Assembly: GCA_022821145.1 (NCBI GenBank)
Contig: JAJEEE010000078.1
Span: 1-39,266 of the forward strand
Source of the DNA: Acidobacteriota bacterium
GTDB lineage: Bacteria > Acidobacteriota > Terriglobia > 20CM-2-55-15
Direction: 5' to 3'
DNA: 39,266 nucleotides
Positions within the stretch are counted from its first letter, which is position 1, and the number at the start of each line of letters is the position of its first letter. Both the position numbers and the translations under genes were made by a program. Shown here piece by piece: positions 23,405 through 38,061 of the stretch. The notes below the pieces were generated by a model. That model was not told where the DNA came from. It searched no databases and saw only the letters and a list, made by a program, of their open reading frames with translations.

Positions 23405-24736
23405 TTACCACAATTGCCCTAAAAAACGCGCGTACGACAAGACCCTCTTATGCATCAAGCGATGGTCGTCGAACTCCCAGACGCGACCCACGTCGCCTCC
23501 CCCAACCGCCGGCCCACGGCTAACTCGCCCAAGAATCTGCTCCCACAATATCGATGACCGTACCGGCGTCGTCAATATCACATCGGTCACGTTCGGACAG
23601 TCGTATCCCGTCGCCAAAATCCGTTTGTTCACCACGACATCGACATCACCAGTCGAAAACTGTCTCAACACCTCGCGTCGTTCCACAGACGACGTAACAT
23701 TCGATACCATACCCACGCGCACACCCCGCGCCCGTATAGCGCCTGCCAACGCATAGCAGTGAGCCAGCGACCCACCGAACACTATCGTACGAGCTTCACG
23801 TCCTAACCCCGCGACCGCCTCAACCACGGACCAAAACCGATGTCGATTCAGAGCCAGTTCATCGACCGACAACGTCCGGGCGTCCAGCCTTCTCACCCTA
23901 ATGCTATCCCATTGCGCCGGCAACCCCAGCGTGTTGACCTGAAGCTTGGACAGCACGCCGCGTTTTATCAGGGCACCAACGGGATCCCCTCCAAGCTCCT
24001 TCGACGTGATCAAGGTATTTCCAAAAAGTTCCCGAAGGTCCTCCCCCTCGTCCTCCACACTGCGACCAGGCGTCGCGCTCAATCCCACAACAGCGGCGCC
24101 ACACCGCAATACATGTCGAACGATCGCCCGGAAGGTCCTCGCGACCGCTTGATGTGCCTCATCGAACACCACGACGTCCGGCCCAAACTTCTCAACTGCG
24201 GCAAGCCGTTTTGACGCCAGTTGAGCGGTGCACAAGGCAACCGTCACACTCGCTCTCCTACCGCCCCTACCAGGAACGTCGTTCACGACTACCTCCACAG
24301 CGGACGTTCCCGGAAACCGATCCCACATATCCTTAATACAGCTGACCGCCTGCTCGACCAACTCCACGGCCGGCGCAATCCATAGCACCCTCTTTACGCG
24401 GCCTCTCTCAATCAATTCCCTGCAAAACCACGTCGCCGTCCTCGTCTTTCCCGCTCCCGTTGGCAACGATACCAGCGCGCCGCCGCCTCCATTGCACGCC
24501 TCCATCCACTCGTGAAGCCTGCTCACGACTTCCCGCTGATATGAAAACAACGGAATCGCCGTCGGCAACGTCAACGTCAGTTTCTCTCGCGACTCCTCTG
24601 CACCCTCCGCCTCATCCTCATCCCCAAATCGATCGCGCCGCAAATACTCAACGGCCAGCTCACGTTCGCGAGCCGAGCCCCCTTGTCGCTCGCTGAGCGG
24701 ACCCTCGAAAAAACGCTCAAGTACTTGAGCCGCCAT
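23405..24736 (-). CDS. SF2 helicase, phosphorothioation-restriction type
   Basis: This 443-residue superfamily 2 helicase has motif Q-like LFSYQREVVSRL, Walker A LVSLPTGAGKT, Walker B VVVFDEAH, motif III GLSATPGR, motif V ILATGYDCP and motif VI QILGRVSRG. Size and architecture fit the family annotated as 'DNA phosphorothioation system restriction enzyme' (TIGR04095), helicases found with dnd/ssp genes. It has no nuclease domain of its own. It starts 6 nt after the DGQHR gene and is the last gene of the operon. In this context it probably translocates on or unwinds unmodified DNA while another subunit cuts. Confidence 0.85.
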   Translation of the reverse strand: MAAQVLERFFEGPLSERQGGSARERELAVEYLRRDRFGDEDEAEGAEESREKLTLTLPTAIPLFSYQREVVSRLHEWMEACNGGGGALVSLPTGAGKTRTATWFCRELIERGRVKRVLWIAPAVELVEQAVSCIKDMWDRFPGTSAVEVVVNDVPGRGGRRASVTVALCTAQLASKRLAAVEKFGPDVVVFDEAHQAVARTFRAIVRHVLRCGAAVVGLSATPGRSVEDEGEDLRELFGNTLITSKELGGDPVGALIKRGVLSKLQVNTLGLPAQWDSIRVRRLDARTLSVDELALNRHRFWSVVEAVAGLGREARTIVFGGSLAHCYALAGAIRARGVRVGMVSNVTSSVERREVLRQFSTGDVDVVVNKRILATGYDCPNVTDVILTTPVRSSILWEQILGRVSRGPAVGGGDVGRVWEFDDHRLMHKRVLSYARFLGQLW

Positions 24737-24742
24737 ATTTCA

Positions 24743-26764
24743 TCAACCGACTAGACTGTTCCACAACCAAGCGACCCTAGGCTTCATCACCGCCCACTTC
24801 TTGTCGTCATCCTGCGCGTCCGCCGAGTCACCGCGCATTTTGCAAATTCGCGCACCTATCGACTGCTCCGGCACGAAAAGCCGATTTAGGCATTGATCCA
24901 ATTTCAAGTCGAGGCCCGACTCCGCAGTCTCAGCGCGTTCCATCAATTTCTCGAAGTCCCCTTGGCCTAACCCCTCGATCTTGTGATAGATCCAAAAGTG
25001 TCCCACCAATAACAGTAAGTCAGAGGCCCTCACTGCCGCCCCCTGAGTGAAGTCGATCGGGCCCTGTGGATCCTGGAACGAGCACAACCAAAACCGATCG
25101 AACGTTTCGTTTTCTTCATCGCAAGGAAACTCGAATCCTGGCTCCAAAAATCCCGGTTCTTTCACAATTAACGTGTTCAAAGCTTCAACGAGCCGACTCG
25201 CCCGTTCCTCCTGAAGACTCACTACCGTACCGGCCTCCTCATCGACTTCCTCCGCCGGCGCATCGATTTCTATCGCGTCCTCATCTCCCAACACTGCGAC
25301 AATTTGTCTAGTGACCTTGGTATACGCCACGAAAGCCAGAAACAAAGCTCGGTGAAAGACTACCGCAAACGCTAACGGATACCTGTCCTTGACCTTCTCG
25401 CACTCCGTCACAGAGTTAAACAAGTCCGTTCCCGCTATCGGATTCTGCAGTCTATTGGCCAACTCATTTTCATACTTCAACAAAAGAGCCGTCGCCTTCG
25501 CCGCCCCCTTCGCGCTCTCCGCACTCGCCTTCAATGCAAACCAGTTACAAAATTCCGGCGACAACGTTCCGTACGTCGCCCGGACGTCGATCAGCTTCCG
25601 ATACGGGACCATTTGCGTCAAAAGAGTGGTAACGGGTTTCGACCATTCGGATCTAAAGCCATCCGCAATCTGCCGAAGTTCATCGACCGGCTCCTCCACG
25701 AAACTGAACGGCCGCTTATGACGATCACATTCTTTAAGACGCTGCCGCGCCATTTCTAAATCTAAACCCAAATTCTTCTCGAGCCGCCCGATCAGTCTGT
25801 CGATCTCGTCATGCGCCATGGGGTCTTCGAACGGCCTTATCGCCAATATCTTGGACACGGCCCAATCCATTCCCAAAATCGTCGCCAAGTACGGCCCATC
25901 ACCGAAAAGCGCCCGTTCCGTGTGCCAGTCCACTAACGACAACGGAAGTCGCGGGAGCGTTTCCTCCAACTCGGCCTTCCCTTCGACAAGCTGATCTCCG
26001 ATGATCGCGCGCACGCAGATCGACACCGGATCGCGATCGTCGAGCAGGATTTGTCGAGCACGACTTACTGTCTGCGCATGCTTATTCAAATCAATGAACA
26101 GACGGCGAAGCGTGTCGATCACAGACTGCCGTCCGCTCCGCGGAAACCCGAGGTCTGGATGAAGCACGATCAAGATCACCGGCACGGACGACGAGGTGCC
26201 TGCCTGCCCGAGTTCCTTAATCGCAGCAAGCCGGTGCTGCCCGTCGATCGCGACCGCACAGACTTCGTTCGTGTTCCAGCATATCTGCCCCAATCGTGCG
26301 TTGTCTTCTATTGGGTCCGACCACCCTCCCCAATAACCGCAAGTCACTGGTCCAAAACGACGCACCCGGTCTGCCGGGAAGTGCTGTTGGTTCTCAAGCT
26401 CCGGCGCATGCCATCCTTTCGACGCCGAAAAATCGCCGACGGTGTCTCCGTGAAATGGCAACAGCGCGATCGTTAGTGAGTTGAAAAAGTGGGGCTCCTC
26501 CTGCTGCTTAAGATATGGAACGATTTTTCGCTCGACGCGGCGCCAGTCGATATCGCGCTGGAATAGCTCCTCGATTCTCCAGTTCATGCTAGAGGCGCCT
26601 GGCATTTCTGTGACGAGAACAAGATACCTCGCGATGTCGTCGAAACTCATCGACACTTGAAAATATGGGACGTGGAGCTGTGAATGACTATAGCGACCGA
26701 AAATGAAGTCAAAATTCGGTGTCTTTCGAATAGTTGTTGCGGGTCGCGGTTGATCCATCATCAC
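24743..26764 (-). CDS. DGQHR/DndB-like protein
   Basis: This 673-residue protein contains the signature AIDGQHRLAAIKEL near residue 175, the DGQHR motif shared by DndB, SspE-type DUF262 proteins and ParB-like folds. Upstream is YFQVSMSFDDIARYLVLV; the C-terminal ~300 residues are helical and acidic and have no recognised domain. DndB proteins bind DNA and regulate dnd loci or help discriminate modified DNA; the extra length here suggests an added interaction module. Base composition is visibly lower in GC than the left arm of the window. Gaps of 6 nt on both sides tie it to the GIY-YIG and helicase genes. Confidence 0.82.
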   Translation of the reverse strand: MMMDQPRPATTIRKTPNFDFIFGRYSHSQLHVPYFQVSMSFDDIARYLVLVTEMPGASSMNWRIEELFQRDIDWRRVERKIVPYLKQQEEPHFFNSLTIALLPFHGDTVGDFSASKGWHAPELENQQHFPADRVRRFGPVTCGYWGGWSDPIEDNARLGQICWNTNEVCAVAIDGQHRLAAIKELGQAGTSSSVPVILIVLHPDLGFPRSGRQSVIDTLRRLFIDLNKHAQTVSRARQILLDDRDPVSICVRAIIGDQLVEGKAELEETLPRLPLSLVDWHTERALFGDGPYLATILGMDWAVSKILAIRPFEDPMAHDEIDRLIGRLEKNLGLDLEMARQRLKECDRHKRPFSFVEEPVDELRQIADGFRSEWSKPVTTLLTQMVPYRKLIDVRATYGTLSPEFCNWFALKASAESAKGAAKATALLLKYENELANRLQNPIAGTDLFNSVTECEKVKDRYPLAFAVVFHRALFLAFVAYTKVTRQIVAVLGDEDAIEIDAPAEEVDEEAGTVVSLQEERASRLVEALNTLIVKEPGFLEPGFEFPCDEENETFDRFWLCSFQDPQGPIDFTQGAAVRASDLLLLVGHFWIYHKIEGLGQGDFEKLMERAETAESGLDLKLDQCLNRLFVPEQSIGARICKMRGDSADAQDDDKKWAVMKPRVAWLWNSLVG

Positions 26765-26770
26765 ACTCCT

Positions 26771-27379
26771 TCACCCCGGACGTTCCGTCCCGAATGGGGC
26801 GAGAACTCTCTGCGTTATCAGCTCCAACAACTCCAGAAGGACGCGACTCTCATCGGACAAACTCGCCGACTCCGAGACCTGCAAATAACGCAGGTCGAGA
26901 TCTTCCCACGCCAATGCAAGTGTGTCACGAACGTATGAATATAGTTGAGTATCGCCCTTCAGGTGCTGGCCCACGCGTGCCCGCAGGTCGCCGGTTTGCC
27001 CAACATAGATCGGCGGAGTGAACTGCGAAAGTCCCTCTACGTATCGCACGAACAGCTTCCGGCGGTCGGCCCGGCGTACCGCTTCGTCAAGGGTCCGCGC
27101 CTTTTCGGGAGTCAATCCCCCGCCGCCCAACTGCAAGCCGTCGGTCCACACGCAGTGGGTCAACTGCTTACGTTTTATACGCGCAGCCGGCTGTTCCACG
27201 ACCTCGTTGATCCACTCCTCGCACGCATCGGCGCTAGAAATAGATCGCTCCGGTGCGACGATCCGACGGCGCCATAGATACAAAGCCGGCGTGCTCGGAA
27301 GTAGTTCGTGGAGCGCGCGGTTCTCGGCCACGTCGAGTAGTTCACCCCCAGAAACAGACTTCCATCGGAATCGTGACAT
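26771..27379 (-). CDS. GIY-YIG nuclease-domain protein
   Basis: This 202-residue protein carries PIYVGQTGDLRARVGQHLKG, the second half of a GIY-YIG nuclease with the catalytic Arg. An earlier PALYLWRRRI at residues 31-40 is a candidate for the GIY strand, about 95 residues away, which is longer than usual and implies an insertion. The Glu-rich LLELLELITQRVLAPFG fits the catalytic Glu helix. GIY-YIG enzymes make single-strand or staggered cuts with a divalent metal. It is the first gene of a three-gene operon with the DGQHR protein and helicase, so it probably supplies the cutting activity. Confidence 0.75.
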   Translation of the reverse strand: MSRFRWKSVSGGELLDVAENRALHELLPSTPALYLWRRRIVAPERSISSADACEEWINEVVEQPAARIKRKQLTHCVWTDGLQLGGGGLTPEKARTLDEAVRRADRRKLFVRYVEGLSQFTPPIYVGQTGDLRARVGQHLKGDTQLYSYVRDTLALAWEDLDLRYLQVSESASLSDESRVLLELLELITQRVLAPFGTERPG

Positions 27380-27667: not shown

Positions 27668-28456
27668 CTATAAGTCACAGACAATACATGCGCGTTGCTC
27701 GGGATTGTCGTCGGCATCTGCGAAAGTCTCGAAAAGCGTCTCGTTCGATCGGTTTTTGGTCGGAGGGGATTGCTCGCGCGCGATCACTTCGTCCGATCGC
27801 TTTGCGAGCTGTTCCAGAGTCTCGCCCTGCGACCAAGTGTAACTACGTCGCGTTTCAGGGTCGTATTTTTCGTACTGTGCCGCTTTCTCGAACAGGTCAG
27901 GATGCCTTTGCTTCAGTCCCACCCACTCGATCTTTCTCTGAAAAAAACAAAAGTAACAGCCGGATCGGCTCCGCCACTGGTAATACTCTGGAAGGCCTAA
28001 TCCGGACTCATCCAATATGCGAAAAACGTCGTCTCGCGTCATTCCCTTCTCTTTGAACGGGTACACGGGCTTGATATTGTGATTCGAGGAGATGTAACCC
28101 TCGCGGTTTTCGTCAGCTCTAATCCCTATGTAGGAATAGACGATGTCGTCCCCGACGTATCGCTCGAACGGAATGATCTTGAGCATGCGCGTGCACCAGC
28201 GAGCCTGCGGCGATGGCAAATAGCCGCCATACATCTCAAGCCAGTGATCGAAGTCCAGATCGGAATTCAGTACGACAATCTTCTTCCCCAGGTAGGCTTC
28301 TATTTTTTGCAGGTACTCGTACGTCTCCTTCAACTCCTTGCCCGTGTCGCAAAACACGTATTCCATCTCGGGAATCCGGTCGCGCATGTAGATGGCCAAC
28401 GCGGTGCTGTCCTTGCCACCGGAAAGACTCAAGATGTGCCGTACCTTCTCGGTCAT
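27668..28456 (-). CDS. sspD: SspD/DndC-like phosphorothioation sulfurtransferase
   Basis: This 262-residue PAPS-reductase-family ATP pyrophosphatase has the PP-loop SLSGGKDSTALA at residues 10-21. It is Cys-rich: RWCTRMLK, RSGCYFCFFQRK and the C-terminal ACIVCDL, consistent with a 4Fe-4S cluster as in DndC. These enzymes activate DNA phosphate with ATP and transfer sulfur to the backbone. DndC is longer; size and neighbours (DUF4007 and a large ATPase) favour the SspD role in single-strand phosphorothioation. Its ATG overlaps the stop of the ATPase gene (ATGA, 28453-28456), so the two are translationally coupled. Confidence 0.82.
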   Translation of the reverse strand: MTEKVRHILSLSGGKDSTALAIYMRDRIPEMEYVFCDTGKELKETYEYLQKIEAYLGKKIVVLNSDLDFDHWLEMYGGYLPSPQARWCTRMLKIIPFERYVGDDIVYSYIGIRADENREGYISSNHNIKPVYPFKEKGMTRDDVFRILDESGLGLPEYYQWRSRSGCYFCFFQRKIEWVGLKQRHPDLFEKAAQYEKYDPETRRSYTWSQGETLEQLAKRSDEVIAREQSPPTKNRSNETLFETFADADDNPEQRACIVCDL

Positions 28457-31400
28457 AGGTCCTCCATCAACAGCTCGAGGATAGCGCGCTTCTTCTGTTC
28501 AGCCGACAACGAAACACGAGTCACGTTGTTGTATAGCCGCTTCTTGAGTCGCTTCGCGCTGCCGTTGAGTTCCACGTGCTGGAGAATCTGTTCATGCTGG
28601 CGTCCACGCACGGAGTCCACGAGGACACGATCATATCCGGACCAGTCCTCGGAGTCAGCCGTTCGCGTCAGAACTTCCTTCAGGGATTGTGCGTCCCGGA
28701 TCTTCTGAGCGAGCTGGGACATTCCGAGCACGAATTCCTTTTCGTCGTCATCGCGCCAGAATGCGGGCGGTGTGCCGCGAATCACCGATGACACCGACTC
28801 GACCCACTCCCGCTCGGGTTGATCCACGTCGGCGGCACGGAGCAGGAATGCCTTGAGCTGTGTCTCGTTCGTGACGCCGTACAACTGCTCCTGCAGTGAT
28901 TTGAACGACTTCCTCAGACCAGCAGTGCCGACAACCAGCCCCAAGCGAGCCTTGATCTCGTCGACGAGACGCGCCAGCAACTCCGGATAGGCGCGGTTGA
29001 CTTCGGACAGCGCCTTCGTCAGTCCGGATACGAATTTGCGGTCGTTCGTGCTGATTCTCGTGGCGCTCCCGTCCGCGGCAATGGGTTGGCAACCCAAAGC
29101 GTTGGGCAGGTCCTCGAATATCAGTTGCTCGGGCGCTTTCGCCGCCATCAAACGCCGGCGGACCTCGATCGTCGTCTCTGAAAGCTGTTGGGTCTTCAAC
29201 GCGAACGCCGGAAGACCATGCATCCAGCGATAGACGGCTCTCAGAACGGACTCGAAGGCGTCGCCCACCTCTACGCCAAGACTCTTCTCGAGTTCTTTGG
29301 AGAGCTTGGACATCACCAGCGCTCGACGCCCGGTCAGCGCGATGTATCGGAAGAAGAAACGGTCGGGGCTCTTCAGGAGCTTCTCGACGACTTCCGGTGA
29401 CCATTCGCGGATGAACATTGTCCCGTCGTACAGGGCCACGGAATGCCGCCGGCTCGCGAACACGACGAACATGAGGATGGGGATGACGCCTGAACGGAGC
29501 CCGTACGGCGGAGCGGACAGGACATCGACGACGTCCGAAATCTGCCGCGGGGAATCCACCGCGGATTCCAATATCTTCTCGATCTCCCGCCAAGTCGCGT
29601 TCAGCCCGGAATTCTTTCGTGTGGGCGCCTTGTAGGTCCACGCGTCCGCGTCGCCTCGAACGTGGATTCCAGTCGACCGGAGGACGCCGCGGTAGATGGC
29701 CATCTCCGGCGGGAACCCTTCGATACCGAGGTTCTCCTTGTCGCCGTTCTGCAAGATACACTGGATCAGCCGCTTGCGCGCCGTCACGATCGTTCCGCTG
29801 AGATGATTCCGGCTGATCATCTCGTTCCGAATGACCGGCGTCTTCGGATACGCTTGGTCGCAAGCCGTGGACACCAAGCGGTTGGCCTCTGCCGCGCTGC
29901 GCGGCTGATGCTCCTCGCCAGCGCTGAGATGCCAGGTGGAGCCGGCCCGGTTCGGATCCGACAGGCCGCCGACGATGCCCCGGAAATGCGCCTCGGCGAT
30001 CGCGAGTCGTTCCGACAACTCGCGCTGCGCCACCGCGTCGTCGCGAAGCTCGCCACTTTTGTCCAACACGTTCTGAATCGCAACGAAGTCCAGCAATGCC
30101 TCCGAGAACGGCAACGGGCGCTTCGGGAGAACGCAGATGACGGCCGAGTTCCAATTCGACACGGCGATTTTCCGGCACGCCTCGAGCTCCTCGCTCGTCC
30201 GACACAGGACGTAACAGATGAGCCCGTCGGCGGCATGGCCCGCATCGAGGATCCAATTCTTGAAGGCGAGTTCCTTCAACTCGGCGACCGACATGTACCG
30301 GCCCTGATAGAACCGCGTGATGCCGTATTTGTGGCTGTGGCGGCGCGCCACCGTCGCGGCGGCCGGGTATTGCCGACCCAGATAGTCGGCGGCGTCGAAA
30401 TTCGCTTGGAGCGATTCTTTCTCCGCGTCGACCCGGGCGTCGACGTCGAAATCGCTTCCTTCCCACACGCGATACTCGTTGGCGAATCGGCGGAAGACGA
30501 GGATCTTCGCGCCCACCAATTCGTCGAGACATTCGCGCAGTTCCCCGCGGCCGTCCGGGCCGACGTTCAATGCGAACGCCAACATTTCCTCCGACGCGGC
30601 CAGGAGCGTCGGAAGGCCGACCAGGTTGAGCAGGCCGATCGTCTTGACGACTCTATAGGCGAGATCCGGTCGATCGCCCAGCCGGCCCAACGCCGTGTCG
30701 ATTTCGATGTACCGGCGGCCGGCGATTCCCGCGTTGGCGTCTTGCCGCAGTGAGCCGACGAAGTAGTCGTACAGCCGGTCCGCCGTCAGGTAGGGAATGT
30801 CTCCCGGGTTCCAGCGCTTCGCCGTCAGGTAGTCCTTCAGCCCGTAGGGCTCGGTCGAACACAGAAACGTGTAGATGCTGCGCTCGTTCTGCGCGGCGCG
30901 TCCGGACAATCGGGGCAGCAGGTAAATCGTCAGCGGATGGAGCGGGTAGCAACGCTCGAACAGCGTCTGCCAATAGCCCGTGTCGCCCAGCTTGCTGAAG
31001 GCCGGGTGCTCCAATGCCGACGCCGCCGCTCGTGCCGAGGAATCTCGGATCAGGCGTCCGATATCGTCCCCGCCGATGCTCCGAAGGCAATCGGCCATGG
31101 CCCGAAAAGACGCAGTGGGGTCGGCCGTGAAGTCGAATTCCCGGAAACGCCCCTGGATTTTCTCCCATTCCCGCGTCTGGTGCCGGGGCAGACCGCTCAC
31201 GTAGCGATCGAAGTTCTGATGCGCCAGCAGCCACAAGTGAAGCTGCGGCGCTTCGGCACGGGCGGCCAGCTCTGCCAGGCTCTGCAAGACGAACAGGTCC
31301 GTGGCGCCGCCCGTCATCGCGGCGTTCTCGAGATACTTCCCGAACTCGTCAATGGCGATGATCAGGCCGCTGGACTTCCGGCCGGCGTCGGCGAGGGCGT

Positions 31401-31968
31401 CCTGGAACACTTCGACCACATCCCCGGCGCGAACATCGTCTTCGAAGTCAAGCAGCCGCTTGAGCTTGGCCTGCGTCGGTCGCCGCGCCCACCCCTTCGT
31501 TCCCGTGTCGCCGGACATCGCGCGACGCAGGCCATGGAGCAGGCCGCGTTCGATGGAGCCCCTCTGGCCGTGAACCAGAACGGGTACGTACGACTTGCCG
31601 GCCTGGACGATACCGTCGTCGAGTCGAGCCTCGACCTCAGGCGACTCGGCCTGGAGCCGTTCGCGGCAACGCCGCATCCACGGATCGTCCCAACCCTTGC
31701 TGAACCCGATGGTGGCGAAGAGAGCGAATATGGACTTGCCGGAACCGTACGGCGCGACGACGAACCAGGCCCGGTCCCTGGCTTTCGGTTCCGTGCTGTC
31801 GATCCAGTGCTCCAGCAGCGTGTAGCTCTTGGGACCGAACGTATAGGTCGGAACGTCCGCCGTGTCGGCGATGTCGAAGGATGGATTCACCGATCGGACG
31901 AAACGGCTCTCCACGTCGAAATACGCGGAAAGAGGGCGGTTCATCGATACGACGTTCGACTTAGGCAC
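28453..31968 (-). CDS. sspC: Large P-loop ATPase, SspC-like
   Basis: This 1171-residue protein has Walker A VVAPYGSGKSIF at about residues 70-81 and Walker B SGLIIAIDEFGKYL near 200, followed by a sensor-like LHLWLLAHQNFDRYV. The long remainder is helical, with no nuclease motif seen. The layout resembles BrxC/PglY-type DNA-associated ATPases. Its position between DUF4007 and the PAPS-reductase gene identifies it as the probable SspC subunit, which powers access of the sulfur-transfer machinery to DNA. It overlaps the upstream DUF4007 gene by 8 nt and the downstream sspD-like gene by 4 nt, the tightest coupling in the window. Confidence 0.75.
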   Translation of the reverse strand: MPKSNVVSMNRPLSAYFDVESRFVRSVNPSFDIADTADVPTYTFGPKSYTLLEHWIDSTEPKARDRAWFVVAPYGSGKSIFALFATIGFSKGWDDPWMRRCRERLQAESPEVEARLDDGIVQAGKSYVPVLVHGQRGSIERGLLHGLRRAMSGDTGTKGWARRPTQAKLKRLLDFEDDVRAGDVVEVFQDALADAGRKSSGLIIAIDEFGKYLENAAMTGGATDLFVLQSLAELAARAEAPQLHLWLLAHQNFDRYVSGLPRHQTREWEKIQGRFREFDFTADPTASFRAMADCLRSIGGDDIGRLIRDSSARAAASALEHPAFSKLGDTGYWQTLFERCYPLHPLTIYLLPRLSGRAAQNERSIYTFLCSTEPYGLKDYLTAKRWNPGDIPYLTADRLYDYFVGSLRQDANAGIAGRRYIEIDTALGRLGDRPDLAYRVVKTIGLLNLVGLPTLLAASEEMLAFALNVGPDGRGELRECLDELVGAKILVFRRFANEYRVWEGSDFDVDARVDAEKESLQANFDAADYLGRQYPAAATVARRHSHKYGITRFYQGRYMSVAELKELAFKNWILDAGHAADGLICYVLCRTSEELEACRKIAVSNWNSAVICVLPKRPLPFSEALLDFVAIQNVLDKSGELRDDAVAQRELSERLAIAEAHFRGIVGGLSDPNRAGSTWHLSAGEEHQPRSAAEANRLVSTACDQAYPKTPVIRNEMISRNHLSGTIVTARKRLIQCILQNGDKENLGIEGFPPEMAIYRGVLRSTGIHVRGDADAWTYKAPTRKNSGLNATWREIEKILESAVDSPRQISDVVDVLSAPPYGLRSGVIPILMFVVFASRRHSVALYDGTMFIREWSPEVVEKLLKSPDRFFFRYIALTGRRALVMSKLSKELEKSLGVEVGDAFESVLRAVYRWMHGLPAFALKTQQLSETTIEVRRRLMAAKAPEQLIFEDLPNALGCQPIAADGSATRISTNDRKFVSGLTKALSEVNRAYPELLARLVDEIKARLGLVVGTAGLRKSFKSLQEQLYGVTNETQLKAFLLRAADVDQPEREWVESVSSVIRGTPPAFWRDDDEKEFVLGMSQLAQKIRDAQSLKEVLTRTADSEDWSGYDRVLVDSVRGRQHEQILQHVELNGSAKRLKKRLYNNVTRVSLSAEQKKRAILELLMEDL

Positions 31969-32914
31969 CGTAGAACCCCCTCAGGATGTTGTCGGCCGTG
32001 GTGTTTCCGAGGTGCACCTGGACCAACCCCGCGGTTCGCGTGAGGCGGACAGCGTGGCGTCCCCCTTCCGCTTCCAGACGTTCCAACGTTGCGAACAACG
32101 ACTCGTTGTCCAATCCGAAGAGCCGTCCGGGGCTCCCTTCACCCCAACGGATCGCGTCGAACGGGAGGAGATCCGAGCCGCCTCTGGCGTTCTCCGCGAA
32201 ACGATATATTCCGTACGCAACGATCGCGTCCGGCAGGTTCGGCTTGGGCCCGACCACGAACCGGAAGAAGCTGTTTCCGGCCAGCCGATCCACGAGGCCC
32301 AGCGCGGCCAGCGGACAATCCAGGCTGTCTTCGGCCGGGATCTTGTCGGATCGGCTCGACGGCGCGTACGTCCGGACGAAACACGAGAAATCACGCTCCA
32401 GCGACTTCCGGGGCGCGTCGACGCCCTCCTGTGCCAGGAATCGCTCGAATTGGAGCAGAAAGACGTCACGCTGAAACTCGCCCTGGCCGAAGCAGTTGAA
32501 CGCCCAGAACCACGTCGTCGCCCGCGAATAGTTCGTCGCCAGATGGGCGTGGGCGATCCAGAGCGATGCGTCTTCTTCAAAGTACGGATCGCGGTCGCGG
32601 AGAAGTTCCGCCAAGGGGGTCAGCTTGAACGCCTGGCGTTTCCGGTCCGGGCGATACTGCGGCGAAATCTCCTCGATCAGACCCGCGGCCACCAACCAGT
32701 GGCGGATGGCGGAAACCATGTTGCGACCCACGCCGAGTATGTCGATCGCCTCGGTCCTGCCGAAGACGTCGGGGTGCTCGGCCACGGCCTCCATGCCCTT
32801 GATCAGCCAGCCGTCGCGGATATGGAAGGACTCGTGGCGCCCAAAACTCGTTTGGGTTGAAGCTCTTGGCCATGCGTCCGGCCGGGCGTTCGATATGCTT
32901 GCCGTCGCGATCAT
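31961..32914 (-). CDS. sspB: DUF4007 protein, SspB-like
   Basis: This 317-residue protein opens with FGRHESFHIRDGWLIKGMEA, followed by VGRNMVSAIRHWLVAAGLIE (a helix-turn-helix-like segment) and LWIAHAHLATNYSRATTWFW, all characteristic of DUF4007. SspB of single-strand phosphorothioation systems belongs to this group, to my knowledge, and acts as a DNA nickase that opens the backbone for sulfur insertion. ATG at 32914 has an AGGGG-type site 6 nt upstream. It is the first gene of the three overlapping modification genes; the methyltransferase gene ends 113 nt upstream. Confidence 0.8.
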   Translation of the reverse strand: MIATASISNARPDAWPRASTQTSFGRHESFHIRDGWLIKGMEAVAEHPDVFGRTEAIDILGVGRNMVSAIRHWLVAAGLIEEISPQYRPDRKRQAFKLTPLAELLRDRDPYFEEDASLWIAHAHLATNYSRATTWFWAFNCFGQGEFQRDVFLLQFERFLAQEGVDAPRKSLERDFSCFVRTYAPSSRSDKIPAEDSLDCPLAALGLVDRLAGNSFFRFVVGPKPNLPDAIVAYGIYRFAENARGGSDLLPFDAIRWGEGSPGRLFGLDNESLFATLERLEAEGGRHAVRLTRTAGLVQVHLGNTTADNILRGFYGA

Positions 32915-33027: not shown

Positions 33028-34479
33028 TCACTTACCGCCGTCGGCCCGGCGCGTCAGCCGATGCCCGGCGAGCGTTACGCCGGCCTGAGACAGCGTCTCC
33101 TCCCACTGCTTGCGACATCCGATCCCGTCCCGGGACAGCAACCCGAGCTTCTCTTCCCTCTCGGTCAGCGCGCGGAACTTCTCGAACCCCGGGTAGTCGC
33201 CGAGCACCAGCGTCTCCTTGCGATGCAGAATCGGCGGATTCAACGAATCCGAGTAGTCCCGGATTCCGTAATCGGTCGTCGGAAGTTGAGCCCGGACGCT
33301 GTTCCGCAACGCGGGATGCGCGTCCTCGTCGAAACGATCGTACGTCAGGAAGGCGACCTTCCGGCCGTCCCACCACAACTTCAAGACGTTGTAGCCCGTG
33401 TCGCCGACGATCTGCTTCCCGGCGAACACGACCAGCCGCAACAGGGGCGGCAACGCGTCTTCCGCCGATCGGTGGATGTAGAGCGTGTCGTTGACGCGCT
33501 TTCCGGTCGGCGCCTGATCGAAGGCCTCACCGATCACGTCGGGTTGGCCGATCTTGAACAGAAAGGCGTCCGCGGCCTCCAATGCCGAACCGTACTTGCC
33601 CCAGATCGCGCGGATGTCGGCGTAAACGCCGCCCGGCAGCGTGTTGGCGGGCGGCGGCCGCAACCCCTGCAACCGCAGCATCGACAGGTACGTCAAAATG
33701 TCCTCACGCTTCTGATCCTGTGACTGGATGAGGCGCTCGGGATCGATCTGCCCGAGCGTCAGACGCTCGATGCGCTGCGGCGAGCCGAAGCGCTCGAGAA
33801 GCTTCGCATAACTCGAGAACTCCTCCTTCAACGGCGGCCGCCCGAGCTCGACCGCGAGCTTGACGTAACGCCGGGCGATTCGGTCCCGGGCGAACTGGTT
33901 GATCAGCTCCGCGCGGTACTCGACCCGGAGAAGGAGGGCCTGGTTGGCGATATAGGCCGATTCCGCCGCGTCGTCGGCAAACACGTAAACGACGCCCAAC
34001 GTGGCCGGATAGGCGCGGCGGCCGAGCGTCGCCTCCACGTACTCTCGGAACTCGGCCTGGCTGAAGATCTTCTGGAACGTGCCGCGGCTGGTCATCTGGC
34101 CGTCGTTGAAGTCGGTGGCTCGAGCCGGGGTTCGGTCCACGCGAACGGAGACGATCAGGAGCTGTCGCGCCAACGAAAAGGCCTTCTTCAGAGTGGCGCG
34201 GCGTTCCGCCGGGTCTTCGATCACGTTCAAGACGAACCCGAGATTGACGACCTCGGCTTCCTGAAAGGGCTCCTCCGGCGCGAACGCGGGGTCCCAACCG
34301 GACACGCGGATCCCTTCCTTCTTCAGGTATTCGACGTCTTCGCCGTGACCGCACCCGTAGTCGAATACCGAGCGCTGCGTGTCGATCAGCCCTTGGGCGA
34401 TGGCCAGAGCAACCGGCCGGGAACACCGATAGCGGCGAATGGCCGTTTGAGAACGATCGATCTGCGGTTCGGATGTCAT
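33028..34479 (-). CDS. Phosphorothioation-associated putative methyltransferase
   Basis: This 483-residue protein has a class I methyltransferase fold in its N-terminal half: motif I VFDYGCGHGEDVEYL, an acidic turn GWDPAF, and NLGFVLNVIEDPAERR. The second half (LFKIGQPDVIGEAFDQAP, GRKVAFLTYDRFDEDAHPAL) is specific to the family annotated as DNA phosphorothioation-associated putative methyltransferase (TIGR04096). No DPPY-type base-amino motif is evident, so its target is unclear. It is the first gene of the minus-strand island and diverges from the gene at 34602, with a 122-nt shared promoter region. Confidence 0.87.
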   Translation of the reverse strand: MTSEPQIDRSQTAIRRYRCSRPVALAIAQGLIDTQRSVFDYGCGHGEDVEYLKKEGIRVSGWDPAFAPEEPFQEAEVVNLGFVLNVIEDPAERRATLKKAFSLARQLLIVSVRVDRTPARATDFNDGQMTSRGTFQKIFSQAEFREYVEATLGRRAYPATLGVVYVFADDAAESAYIANQALLLRVEYRAELINQFARDRIARRYVKLAVELGRPPLKEEFSSYAKLLERFGSPQRIERLTLGQIDPERLIQSQDQKREDILTYLSMLRLQGLRPPPANTLPGGVYADIRAIWGKYGSALEAADAFLFKIGQPDVIGEAFDQAPTGKRVNDTLYIHRSAEDALPPLLRLVVFAGKQIVGDTGYNVLKLWWDGRKVAFLTYDRFDEDAHPALRNSVRAQLPTTDYGIRDYSDSLNPPILHRKETLVLGDYPGFEKFRALTEREEKLGLLSRDGIGCRKQWEETLSQAGVTLAGHRLTRRADGGK

Positions 34480-34601: not shown

Positions 34602-35210
34602 ATGCCCGCCGCCGGAGCCGTGGGCGCGGTGGTCCACAGCGGCTGGGCCATCCTGGTGACCGTAACGGCGCGGGACGACGTCCCCGTCATCGTCGACCGC
34701 CGGCGGGCGCCGCTGATCGGCGACGGCCTGCCGAGCATGCCCGTGCATCACATTCCGGACGGGCTCGACCGGGACGGGCTGGCCGCGTTGATCGGCCGGG
34801 TCCGGACCGCGGCGGAACGCTACGCCGAGGACGCGTTCGCAAGTCTCGTCGAATCCGTCCGCGGACACTGCCGGCTCACGGTCCTGGCCCACCGGGCGCC
34901 CCGCCCCCTGCCGCCGACGCTGGACGGGATTCTCAACTCCTACACGGCCACGTTGATCGCCGACGCGGAGATGTACCTCGCGGCGGTTTCGCGCGCGGCT
35001 GGACTGGCGGGCATCCCCGCGGTCACGTTCGCCCGGGGCCGCGAGGTGGAGGCGGCGGCCGACGCGCTCGGCGTCGACACGGACGCCGTCGACGCTTTCC
35101 TGAAGGGACTCCGCGCGTCGCTGGGGCCACCCTGGCAGGCGGACCACCGCACCGCGGCGGCCGCGGCCATCGGGGCCATGGCGCGCGGGGGTTCGTGGCG
35201 GCTCCCCTGA
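34602..35210 (+). CDS. Conserved hypothetical protein
   Basis: This 202-residue protein contains GWAILVTVTARDDVPVIVDR, PVHHIPDG, a segment with RAPRPLPPTLDGIL and the C-terminal LGPPWQADHRTAAAAAIGAM. I have a sense of a widespread family with PPW..xHK near the C-terminus and a helical domain, but cannot name it. High GC matches the chromosomal background rather than the island. ATG at 34602 is the first of the frame, and no strong ribosome site is visible. It may mark the right edge of the island's acquired segment. Confidence 0.65.
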   Translation: MPAAGAVGAVVHSGWAILVTVTARDDVPVIVDRRRAPLIGDGLPSMPVHHIPDGLDRDGLAALIGRVRTAAERYAEDAFASLVESVRGHCRLTVLAHRAPRPLPPTLDGILNSYTATLIADAEMYLAAVSRAAGLAGIPAVTFARGREVEAAADALGVDTDAVDAFLKGLRASLGPPWQADHRTAAAAAIGAMARGGSWRLP

Positions 35211-35561: not shown

Positions 35562-36467
35562 TCAACTCAATAGATGGTCGACTCGCCATCTCAGCGCTTC
35601 CGGCGACGGATGAAACTTCGGATGACCGTGAAATATCACGGACTGGCCCTCCAAACTAACGAACGGCTGATAGTCCGATATGCGCTTGTCCAATTTCCTA
35701 GACACTCTCCATTTCATGTCCGGGCCTGGCGCGATCAGGTGCCGGTCCATGGCCCGGTGATAGGTCGGCGCGAGGGCGATTCCGTTGCAGGGCCGATCGT
35801 CGCGCGTTTCGGTGAAGGGAATCAGATGCGCCGCGTCCACCAACGGGCCGACGTCGGGCAAGACGATTCGCGAACCGGTCGCGGCGCAACGATAGTCATA
35901 AGCTTGAAGTACCAACCGTCGGAAGCTTTGCCTGCGCGCCGTGTCGTCAGGTCGGGGAGAGTCGGCATCTGTCGTCTCGTTCGTGCGCAACCGGCTTTCG
36001 TACTCGTTCGCCTCGTGTCTCGCTTGTATGACCGCCTCGACCTCCGCGCGACGTTCTCCGAGCCAGCGGCCGATCAGCACGTCCCGCATTACTCGCCTGG
36101 CTTCCACGTTGGTCGTCATGTCTACGTAAAGCCCCTCGGCTAGCCTCGCAGATCTTCCCAACATCGATCGATGGCGGGGTTTACGACCTTCGTCGCTCTC
36201 GTCCGGCTTGGGACAGAGATGCCAAAATCCTTCACCCCGAAGGTGATAGAACGGGAAATATGGGTGAAGTGGCTCCCCAGGTCGCGCCGCTTCCGAATAA
36301 TCGCGAAACACATCCAACGTGTCCTCGTACCGGATTTCGTTTCGCGACAGAACGCCGCGTTCCGCCAAGTCGATGACGGCAAGAAGCATGCACGGCTTGT
36401 GCACGCTCGGCGGCCCATGGGCCCGGTCGACCTTCAACTTCTCGAACTGTTCCAGATAGTGTGTCAC
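35562..36467 (-). CDS. HNH endonuclease with sulfur-binding-like N-terminal domain
   Basis: This 301-residue protein has a C-terminal HNH_2-type domain: LVLQAYDYRCAATGSRI, LVDAAHLIPFTETRDD and CNGIALAPTYHRAMDRHLI supply the His, Asn and His of the betabetaalpha-metal site. The N-terminal ~95 residues contain SVHKPCMLLAVIDLAERG and PYFPFYHLRGEGFWHL. These resemble the 'HKPLLLL...' and 'YPFWxLxxDGxW' motifs of the ScoMcrA-type sulfur-binding domain, which recognises phosphorothioate DNA; the expected Tyr before Pro is Phe. If so, it is a type IV-like enzyme cutting sulfur-modified DNA. Many relatives with this N-domain are not tested, so substrate remains uncertain. Confidence 0.75.
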   Translation of the reverse strand: MTHYLEQFEKLKVDRAHGPPSVHKPCMLLAVIDLAERGVLSRNEIRYEDTLDVFRDYSEAARPGEPLHPYFPFYHLRGEGFWHLCPKPDESDEGRKPRHRSMLGRSARLAEGLYVDMTTNVEARRVMRDVLIGRWLGERRAEVEAVIQARHEANEYESRLRTNETTDADSPRPDDTARRQSFRRLVLQAYDYRCAATGSRIVLPDVGPLVDAAHLIPFTETRDDRPCNGIALAPTYHRAMDRHLIAPGPDMKWRVSRKLDKRISDYQPFVSLEGQSVIFHGHPKFHPSPEALRWRVDHLLS

Positions 36468-36897: not shown

Positions 36898-38061
36898 TCA
36901 CGGCTGTCCGCCCAACAGGTTCTTCTGCCAGAGCTCGCCCGTGGTGAAATCGTCCAACCACTCCCGATATTCGTCCGGATTCAGCTTGCGCGGTTCGGTC
37001 CGCCCGTCCCTCAGGCTCAGGGTGATGATCTCGCGGAGGTCGAAGGTGTCCACCAACAGCGGCGATTGCGTCGCCACGATGACTTGTCGGTCGGCCGCCA
37101 GGGATTTGATCATGCCGCCGACCAGGGCGACAGCAGCCGGGTGCAGGCCCAACTCGGGCTCGTCCAGCAACAGCACGTGGGGCAGCATCTCCGACGGAAG
37201 GTTCAGTAGCGTCACCAAGGCGAAGAACCTGAGCGAACCGTCGGACGCGAGATGCGCTCCGAAGGTCTTTTCCTGCCCGCGCGCCCTCCATCTCAGAAAC
37301 GCCTTTCCGTGACGCTCGTCGATCGCGAAGCGGTCGAAGTTGGGCAGCACGCGGCCTATCTGATCGCAGATGAACTCGTAGCGCCGCGGCTCCTCGTGCT
37401 CCAGCCGGAACAGGATGGCCGCGAGATTGCCGCCGTGCGTGCGGAGTTGGCGGCTGTTGCCGTCAATGTCCCACTTCAGCTTGAAGGCGGAGGAGTCGGA
37501 CGTGTCGTGAAACTGATAGACGGCGCAACTGCGGAGCCGGTCCACGATGACGCGTGCGGTTTCCCGGTCGACGGCGGCGCCGTCGGCCGATCGCGCCGCC
37601 TCGACGATCGCGGCCTCGCGGTGTCCGCTGTCCAGATACGTCCAATCCGGCTCCGGAAGTCCTCGTTTGCTGAACCGAAAGGCCTCCTCGGCAAAAAAGA
37701 AACGGTCGGGATGCGCCTGGGTGAGCCTGAACTTGTAGTCGTTTCGCCCCTGCCGAGCGCGCAGCCGAATATCGGCCTCGATCGACGGCGTCTCTTTGAG
37801 TCCTCCGAAGAGCTGGTCGTCCGCGCCGCCGTGCCGCTCGACAAACTCGCCAAGCCGCCCGGCCCGCAGCATCCAGCTCAGCATTTCGAAGAAACGAATG
37901 AGATTCGACTTGCCGGAACCGTTGGCGCCGATCAGAACCACGGCAGGGTCCAGGCCGCGAATCTCGAAATCCGCCAGGGAGCGAAAACCCTTGATGTGAA
38001 GCGAGTCGATTCTCGTGAGAATTTGCTCTGGATCGGCGGTCACGGCTTCGTTCTTCGTCAT
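36898..38061 (-). CDS. AAA-family ATPase (RecF/OLD-like)
   Basis: This 387-residue protein starts SLHIKGFRSLADFEIRGL, with Walker A LIGANGSGKSNLI at residues ~41-53, the ABC-type signature region LASDGSLRFFALVTLL and Walker B LLLDEPELGLHP, followed by the H-loop-like VIVATQSPLLVDTF. This is the AAA_21 architecture of stand-alone SMC-like ATPases, several of which pair with nucleases in defence (PtuA, OLD and retron types). No TOPRIM domain and no HNH partner in the same operon is seen, although the HNH gene is 430 nt downstream on the same strand. It abuts the aquaporin fragment by 3 nt. Confidence 0.85.
   Translation of the reverse strand: MTKNEAVTADPEQILTRIDSLHIKGFRSLADFEIRGLDPAVVLIGANGSGKSNLIRFFEMLSWMLRAGRLGEFVERHGGADDQLFGGLKETPSIEADIRLRARQGRNDYKFRLTQAHPDRFFFAEEAFRFSKRGLPEPDWTYLDSGHREAAIVEAARSADGAAVDRETARVIVDRLRSCAVYQFHDTSDSSAFKLKWDIDGNSRQLRTHGGNLAAILFRLEHEEPRRYEFICDQIGRVLPNFDRFAIDERHGKAFLRWRARGQEKTFGAHLASDGSLRFFALVTLLNLPSEMLPHVLLLDEPELGLHPAAVALVGGMIKSLAADRQVIVATQSPLLVDTFDLREIITLSLRDGRTEPRKLNPDEYREWLDDFTTGELWQKNLLGGQP

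Follow-up and report, generated by a model that had tools for sequence, protein, structure and literature searches.

A sulfur-binding-domain HNH nuclease encoded beside an SspBCD phosphorothioation system in an Acidobacteriota genome and its possible role with that system

The window examined in the present study (the whole 39,266-nt stretch of contig JAJEEE010000078.1) encodes a nuclease in which a sulfur-binding domain (SBD) is joined to an HNH domain, next to genes that write DNA phosphorothioate (PT). Judged from its sequence, this protein is most likely a functional PT-reading nuclease and a recurrent accessory of PT islands that is not aimed at the resident mark. The fold, the intact pocket and active site, the intact writer genes, purifying selection, the recurrent linkage, and the occurrence of SBDs within Ssp subunits support this view. 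The first-pass annotation asked how such an enzyme lives with a PT system, and the puzzle is genuine and recognized in the literature (PMC7461809). It considered that the N-domain had lost sulfur recognition, reads a different sequence context, or acts with the system. The architecture, the PT writer, and the puzzle were upheld, whereas the loss of sulfur recognition was not. The other two options both survive, and the last was raised, but not proven, by the recurrent linkage, by SBD-SspF and SBD-DUF4007 fusions in Ssp loci, and by a further pairing of an SBD-HNH with a PT system within this genome. The features are listed in Table 1.

Table 1. Features of the SBD-HNH gene and its neighborhood (positions in the window)
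Feature	Position	Strand	Basis
SBD-HNH endonuclease, 301 aa, GTG start	35562..36467	-	ORF, NCBIfam, Pfam, phmmer, AlphaFold2, Foldseek/VIA-align
Predicted SBD, residues 1-150	36018..36467	-	Structure matches to SBDHga, ScoMcrA, SprMcrA
Sulfur pocket His23-Lys24 (= ScoMcrA H116-R117)	36396..36401	-	Near-invariant in 46-49 homologues; codons checked
Sulfur pocket Phe71-Pro72 (= ScoMcrA Y164-P165)	36252..36257	-	Pro invariant in 46-49 homologues; codons checked
Variable basic loop, residues 86-106 (PKPDESDEGRKPRHRSMLGRS)	36150..36212	-	Alignment; lowest pLDDT block of the model
Predicted HNH nuclease domain, residues 175-301; motif His214, Asn228, His237	35562..35945	-	PF13391; TagI and VcaM4I matches
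AAA_21 ATPase, HEC-01A type, candidate rival partner of the HNH	36898..38061	-	PADLOC
Opposite-strand ORF between the HNH and methyltransferase genes, possibly no gene	34602..35210	+	No family; dN/dS 0.48
PT-associated methyltransferase	33028..34479	-	TIGR04096, 436 bits vs cut-off 150
SspB (DUF4007)	31961..32914	-	PF13182 E 1.5e-76; PADLOC SspB
SspC ATPase	28453..31968	-	PADLOC SspC E 3e-258
SspD, PAPS-reductase-like; SGGKDS motif and CxxC kept	27668..28456	-	PADLOC SspD E 8e-114; sequence
Probable GIY-YIG nuclease (weak)	26771..27379	-	PF01541 E 0.0057, under cut-off
DndB/DGQHR-like protein	24743..26764	-	TIGR03187 66 bits, over cut-off; PF14072
SF2 helicase related to PT restriction helicases (TIGR04095/PbeA)	23405..24736	-	NCBIfam and PADLOC

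The only PDB chain that phmmer matched to the window protein was 8h0l (SBDHga; residues 3-93, E 1.4e-13), with which the family profile aligned over residues 3-146 (E 2.2e-39). The AlphaFold2 model, built from 46 homologues, had a pLDDT of 93 and a pTM of 0.84. Using Foldseek and VIA-align, its residues 1-144 were superposed on SBDHga bound to PT DNA (8h0l; Z 20.1, 2.4 A), its SBD also matched those of ScoMcrA (Z 14.4) and SprMcrA (Z 14.0), and its C-terminus matched the TagI nuclease (Z 14.4) and VcaM4I (Z 11.9). The model confirmed the predicted joining of an SBD to an HNH nuclease, as had been claimed, and the proposed comparison with the ScoMcrA SBD revealed no different fold. However, the SBD covers approximately 150 residues rather than the 95 assigned to it. 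The designation as a ScoMcrA-type enzyme was correct for the SBD and HNH, but not for the SRA domain, which is absent from the window protein: the SBD stops at approximately residue 150 and the HNH begins at approximately 175 of 301 aa in total. HNH_2 (PF13391) was the only Pfam family above its cut-off (residues 194-246), and the DUF262 with a DGQQR motif and DUF1524 of the SspE/DndI layout were absent in this search. The NCBIfam model of phosphorothioated-DNA-binding restriction endonucleases (NF045808) matched along the whole protein, with 75.4 bits against a cut-off of 180. We filed the protein as a divergent relative of the SBDHga type, outside the NF045808 model by score.

The sulfur in ScoMcrA is surrounded by P165, Y164, H116, A168, and R117; recognition is borne by P165, H116, and a basic residue (R117 or K), with R117K being tolerated (PMC6224610). 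All recognition residues are kept in the window SBD (P72, H23, and K24). Phe-Pro had been read correctly in place of Tyr-Pro (Phe71-Pro72), and a loss of sulfur recognition was suggested from it. If this were the case, the enzyme would cut unmodified DNA or another modification, and the loss of 65% of complex formation in ScoMcrA Y164F (PMC6224610) is in its favor. However, the homologue alignment and the ScoMcrA mutants ruled out Phe-Pro as a sign of lost binding. Phe-Pro is not evidence of loss because Phe is usual at residue 71 in relatives, including stand-alone members, Tyr occupies the ScoMcrA 164 position in only 7/23 homologues, Y164M binds more strongly, and R117K is tolerated (PMC6224610). 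Moreover, Hga binds PT with Leu in the lid position, and SprMcrA, in which the aligned pair is Tyr-Gln, nevertheless binds PT. With the recognition residues intact, we consider lost recognition to be very improbable. The form of the basic loop at residues 86-106 is confined in the alignment to the window clade (the window, L044, L045, and L046). This loop occupies the position of the base-contacting loop of ScoMcrA (PMC6224610) and, by analogy, may have the same role.

The three residues of the HNH motif are all invariant among the homologues. In a comparison with the near-identical locus L044, dN/dS was 0.119 for the HNH gene, 0.125 for the methyltransferase, and 0.068 for SspB. The value of the HNH gene resembles those of the two other genes, and the HNH gene is maintained under purifying selection.

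The sulfur-modification system reported nearby was borne out by Pfam, PADLOC, and NCBIfam. SspB, SspC, and SspD are all present beside the HNH gene (Pfam and PADLOC), together with a TIGR04096 methyltransferase, and by its genes this system is SspBCD, a single-strand PT writer, not Dnd. The HNH gene was placed approximately 1.1 kb upstream of the methyltransferase gene, and the gap measured 1083 bp. Because an opposite-strand ORF lies in this gap, the two genes do not appear to form one operon; their co-transcription is unlikely and the HNH gene is outside the Ssp operon. The cysteine desulfurase SspA was not found in the window island, and SufS-profile matches elsewhere in the genome were all under the cut-off. 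Third-position GC is lower in the island (0.64-0.84) than in flanking genes (up to 0.98), which suggests horizontal acquisition. The SspF and DndF profiles had no match in the window genome, with the controls being equally without signal. Regarding SspE or DndI in this genome, two DUF262 genes on other contigs better fit HEC-05 and PDC-M55C.

We also noted that the window SF2 helicase lacks the N-terminal region of its 724-aa relative L168:10480-12654. The pair of GIY-YIG and DGQHR/DndB-like genes recurs beside PT systems (window 24743-27379, L137:926-3533, and L005:10940-13892), and a RelA/SpoT-like gene follows it in L005.

The HNH protein may instead be the effector of the adjoining AAA_21 (HEC-01A) ATPase, in the manner of Septu-like ATPase-HNH pairs. 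The ATPase gene is upstream on the same strand at a gap of 430 bp, and the C-terminal HNH matches a PADLOC HNH model. However, among relatives, the ATPase was found only in L044, as its first 44 residues (L044:730-861), and the HNH and Ssp genes stay there. A conserved partnership was not upheld, the SBD would be left unexplained, and this arrangement is highly unlikely.

The proposed survey of co-occurrence was performed. When 84,980 species genomes were scanned, 80 relatives were returned. L044 has a 96% identical homologue in the same arrangement as the window. In L045, a gammaproteobacterial MAG, the gene of a 60% homologue precedes SspB-SspC-SspD by 3.2 kb in the same orientation, and the SspB encoded there is highly divergent from that of the window (161 vs 729 bits). 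HNH relatives are beside dndCDE or dndBCDE in Polynucleobacter (L067) and cyanobacteria (L109, L110, L111, L113, and L118), beside dnd genes on a Picosynechococcus plasmid, and beside dndBCDE in Chlorohelix. In L041 (G009), which belongs to the phylum of the window, the HNH ORF overlaps dndC by 8 nt. A canonical-type SBD-HNH in G342 is divergent from an adjoining SspB split into two frames. At L137:9365-10772(-), SspB is broken into two overlapping frames, a canonical SBD-HNH lies divergently next to it, and the writer may have been inactivated.

We then considered whole genomes of 50 relatives, which were hand-picked and included nearly all linked members then known. Six had a full DndC match, which was at most 10 kb from the HNH gene in five and approximately 21 kb away in one. 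SspB was present in four, within 4 kb in two and on other contigs in two. The other 40 (approximately 80%) lacked a full-strength match to either DndC or SspB. In the family tree, PT-linked members clustered (5 changes against a shuffled mean of 14.1; 0/500), with near-copies adding to the clustering. The pairing of SBD-HNH with a PT writer thus recurs, with dnd-linked relatives spread over several phyla, although most of these genomes have no PT system, and less than 3.6% of such enzymes are near dnd genes (PMC7461809).

The window genome itself contains a second pair. Contig C4 carries dndC, dndD, and dndE over curated cut-offs, a dndB match, and a further TIGR04096 gene, with a canonical SBD-HNH (308 bits, over the NF045808 cut-off) approximately 4 kb from the dnd genes; the whole locus spans L005:9341-19999. 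This genome therefore has two PT writers, SspBCD and dndBCDE, each with its own SBD-HNH.

SBDs also occur within subunits of PT systems. In three SspBCD loci, an SspF-like ATPase carries a fused N-terminal SBD, namely, at L133:2011-4359(-), L164:15307-17682(+), and L165:2618-5035(-), and the fusion gene follows SspD by 3 nt in L164 and 6 nt in L165. The 459-aa protein at L160:4706-6085(-) joins an SBD to a DUF4007 (SspB-like) domain, and its Ssp locus additionally encodes a separate SspB. Known N-terminal fusions of DndF include an unspecified wHTH, and the SBD has been equated with the wHTH (PMC10853773). Since these fusions involve the PT system's own subunits, they suggest that the resident mark is readable by an SBD. 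The SBD, familiar as the reader of enzymes that attack PT DNA, may also recognize the resident mark in part of the Ssp and Dnd systems, whether in SBD-HNH effectors next to SspBCD or in SBD-SspF or SBD-DUF4007 fusions, and we advance this generalization with considerable reserve.

The generality of the link was assessed at loci picked regardless of SBD, scoring SBD proteins within approximately 10 kb and using BREX loci as the control. An SBD protein was near 2/15 Ssp loci in the phylum of the window, 3/10 in Gammaproteobacteria, and 0/23 in cyanobacteria, against 0/19 BREX loci. The difference was not significant over all Ssp loci (5/48, p 0.18), and a general SBD-Ssp link was not upheld. In contrast, the two bacterial groups outside cyanobacteria together had 5/25 (p 0.049). 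The association is clear in fusions and operons, but is limited to some lineages. The lack of significance over all loci, the position of the window gene outside an operon, and the tendency of defense genes to cluster would fit a passenger in a defense island, with low or silent activity and near the Ssp genes by chance. However, purifying selection, intact motifs, linkage repeated in independent clades, SBDs fused to Ssp subunits, and the difference outside cyanobacteria make a passenger rather unlikely.

Two readings of the coexistence remain close, and we slightly favor action with the resident system, as a tentative choice. Under this reading, the SBD would still read phosphorothioate sulfur, and the enzyme would coexist with SspBCD because it does not aim its cutting at the resident mark. 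The SBD would identify the island's own PT as self, leaving the HNH domain to be spent on DNA without the correct mark, as in SspE, DndI, and SspFGH (PMC9646914, PMC11662687, and PMC8092258). We infer all three elements on which this depends, namely, PT binding by the window SBD, the PT context that it reads, and the gating of the HNH by binding. The intact fold, pocket, and active-site residues are consistent with it, as are the dN/dS of the HNH gene (0.12, vs 0.07-0.13 for SspB and the methyltransferase), the L045 homologue near a divergent SspBCD, the dndC overlap in L041, and the dnd-linked relatives in cyanobacteria, Polynucleobacter, and Chlorohelix. In the hand-picked set, 6/6 full DndC matches lay no more than approximately 21 kb from the HNH gene, and 2/4 SspB lay within 4 kb; the clustering on the tree, the second pair in the genome, and the SBD fusions to SspF and DUF4007 point in the same direction. 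Bsp48385I, the one closely dnd-linked enzyme of nine tested, was nearly PT-indifferent on plasmid DNA (Lutz et al., PMC7461809), which fits this reading or reflects an untried context. However, those free SBD-HNH enzymes that have been characterized and are clearly active cut in the vicinity of PT, and the second enzyme of the genome (L005) is EcoWI-like and expected to cut PT DNA. The window gene is also outside the Ssp operon, most genomes of relatives show no PT system, the scarcity of SBDs near Ssp loci limits the link to some lineages, and the protein has no NTPase domain to account for gating.

It is possible, and only a little less probable in our judgment, that the protein is a type IV enzyme cutting PT in non-resident contexts and thereby excluding rival PT systems, with the variable loop setting the context. 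The biochemistry and context dependence of ScoMcrA, SprMcrA, and EcoWI support this (PMC6224610, PMC7470945, and PMC7461809). The known PT contexts of Dnd (G-PS-N) are not those of Ssp (C-PS-CA), a basic loop particular to the window clade occupies the site of base contact, and most relatives are stand-alone. However, both SBD-HNH enzymes of the window genome would have to ignore both resident PT marks, and such a guard does not require a stable, phylum-deep linkage or the dndC overlap. Furthermore, the closest solved SBD, SBDHga, is reportedly sequence-promiscuous.

SBDHga of Hahella ganghwensis (8h0l) shares 29-31% identity and the same pocket layout with the window SBD, but has Leu-Pro and another post-strand loop. 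EcoWI, Ksp11411I, Bsp305I, and related enzymes (NF045808) have the same two-domain SBD-HNH layout of approximately 300 aa; the window protein differs in its score (75 bits against the cut-off of 180) and in adjoining a PT writer. ScoMcrA shares the SBD fold, the pocket, and a C-terminal HNH, but has an SRA in between. The wHTH(SBD)+SAD+HNH proteins of Dnd loci, proposed as an alternative restriction component, are likewise SBD-bearing HNH nucleases linked to a PT writer (PMC10853773), whereas the window protein has no SAD/SRA and its writer is Ssp. SspE and DndI are PT-sensing HNH nucleases that coexist with PT marks; however, they combine a DUF262 NTPase reader with a DUF1524 HNH and have no SBD. 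The general puzzle is already known, as is the occurrence in Dnd loci of HNH nucleases that carry an SBD (PMC7461809 and PMC10853773). In the open-access literature searched, we found no earlier description of linkage between an SBD-HNH and SspBCD, of a genome in which two SBD-HNH enzymes each accompany a PT system, or of SBD-SspF and SBD-DUF4007 fusions interpreted as self recognition.

A 2021 survey found neither of the known restriction partners at 2,211/2,678 sspBCD loci (PMC8092258). A nuclease or ATPase that carries an SBD and adjoins SspBCD offers a concrete candidate for the restriction arm of a few of these partnerless loci. If the SBD is a reader of the resident mark, some of the 'orphan' SspBCD loci would thereby be supplied with restriction arms. 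The present case bears on whether the SBD only destroys PT DNA or can read self, and a natural place to test this is the window genome, whose two PT systems are each paired with a separate SBD-HNH.
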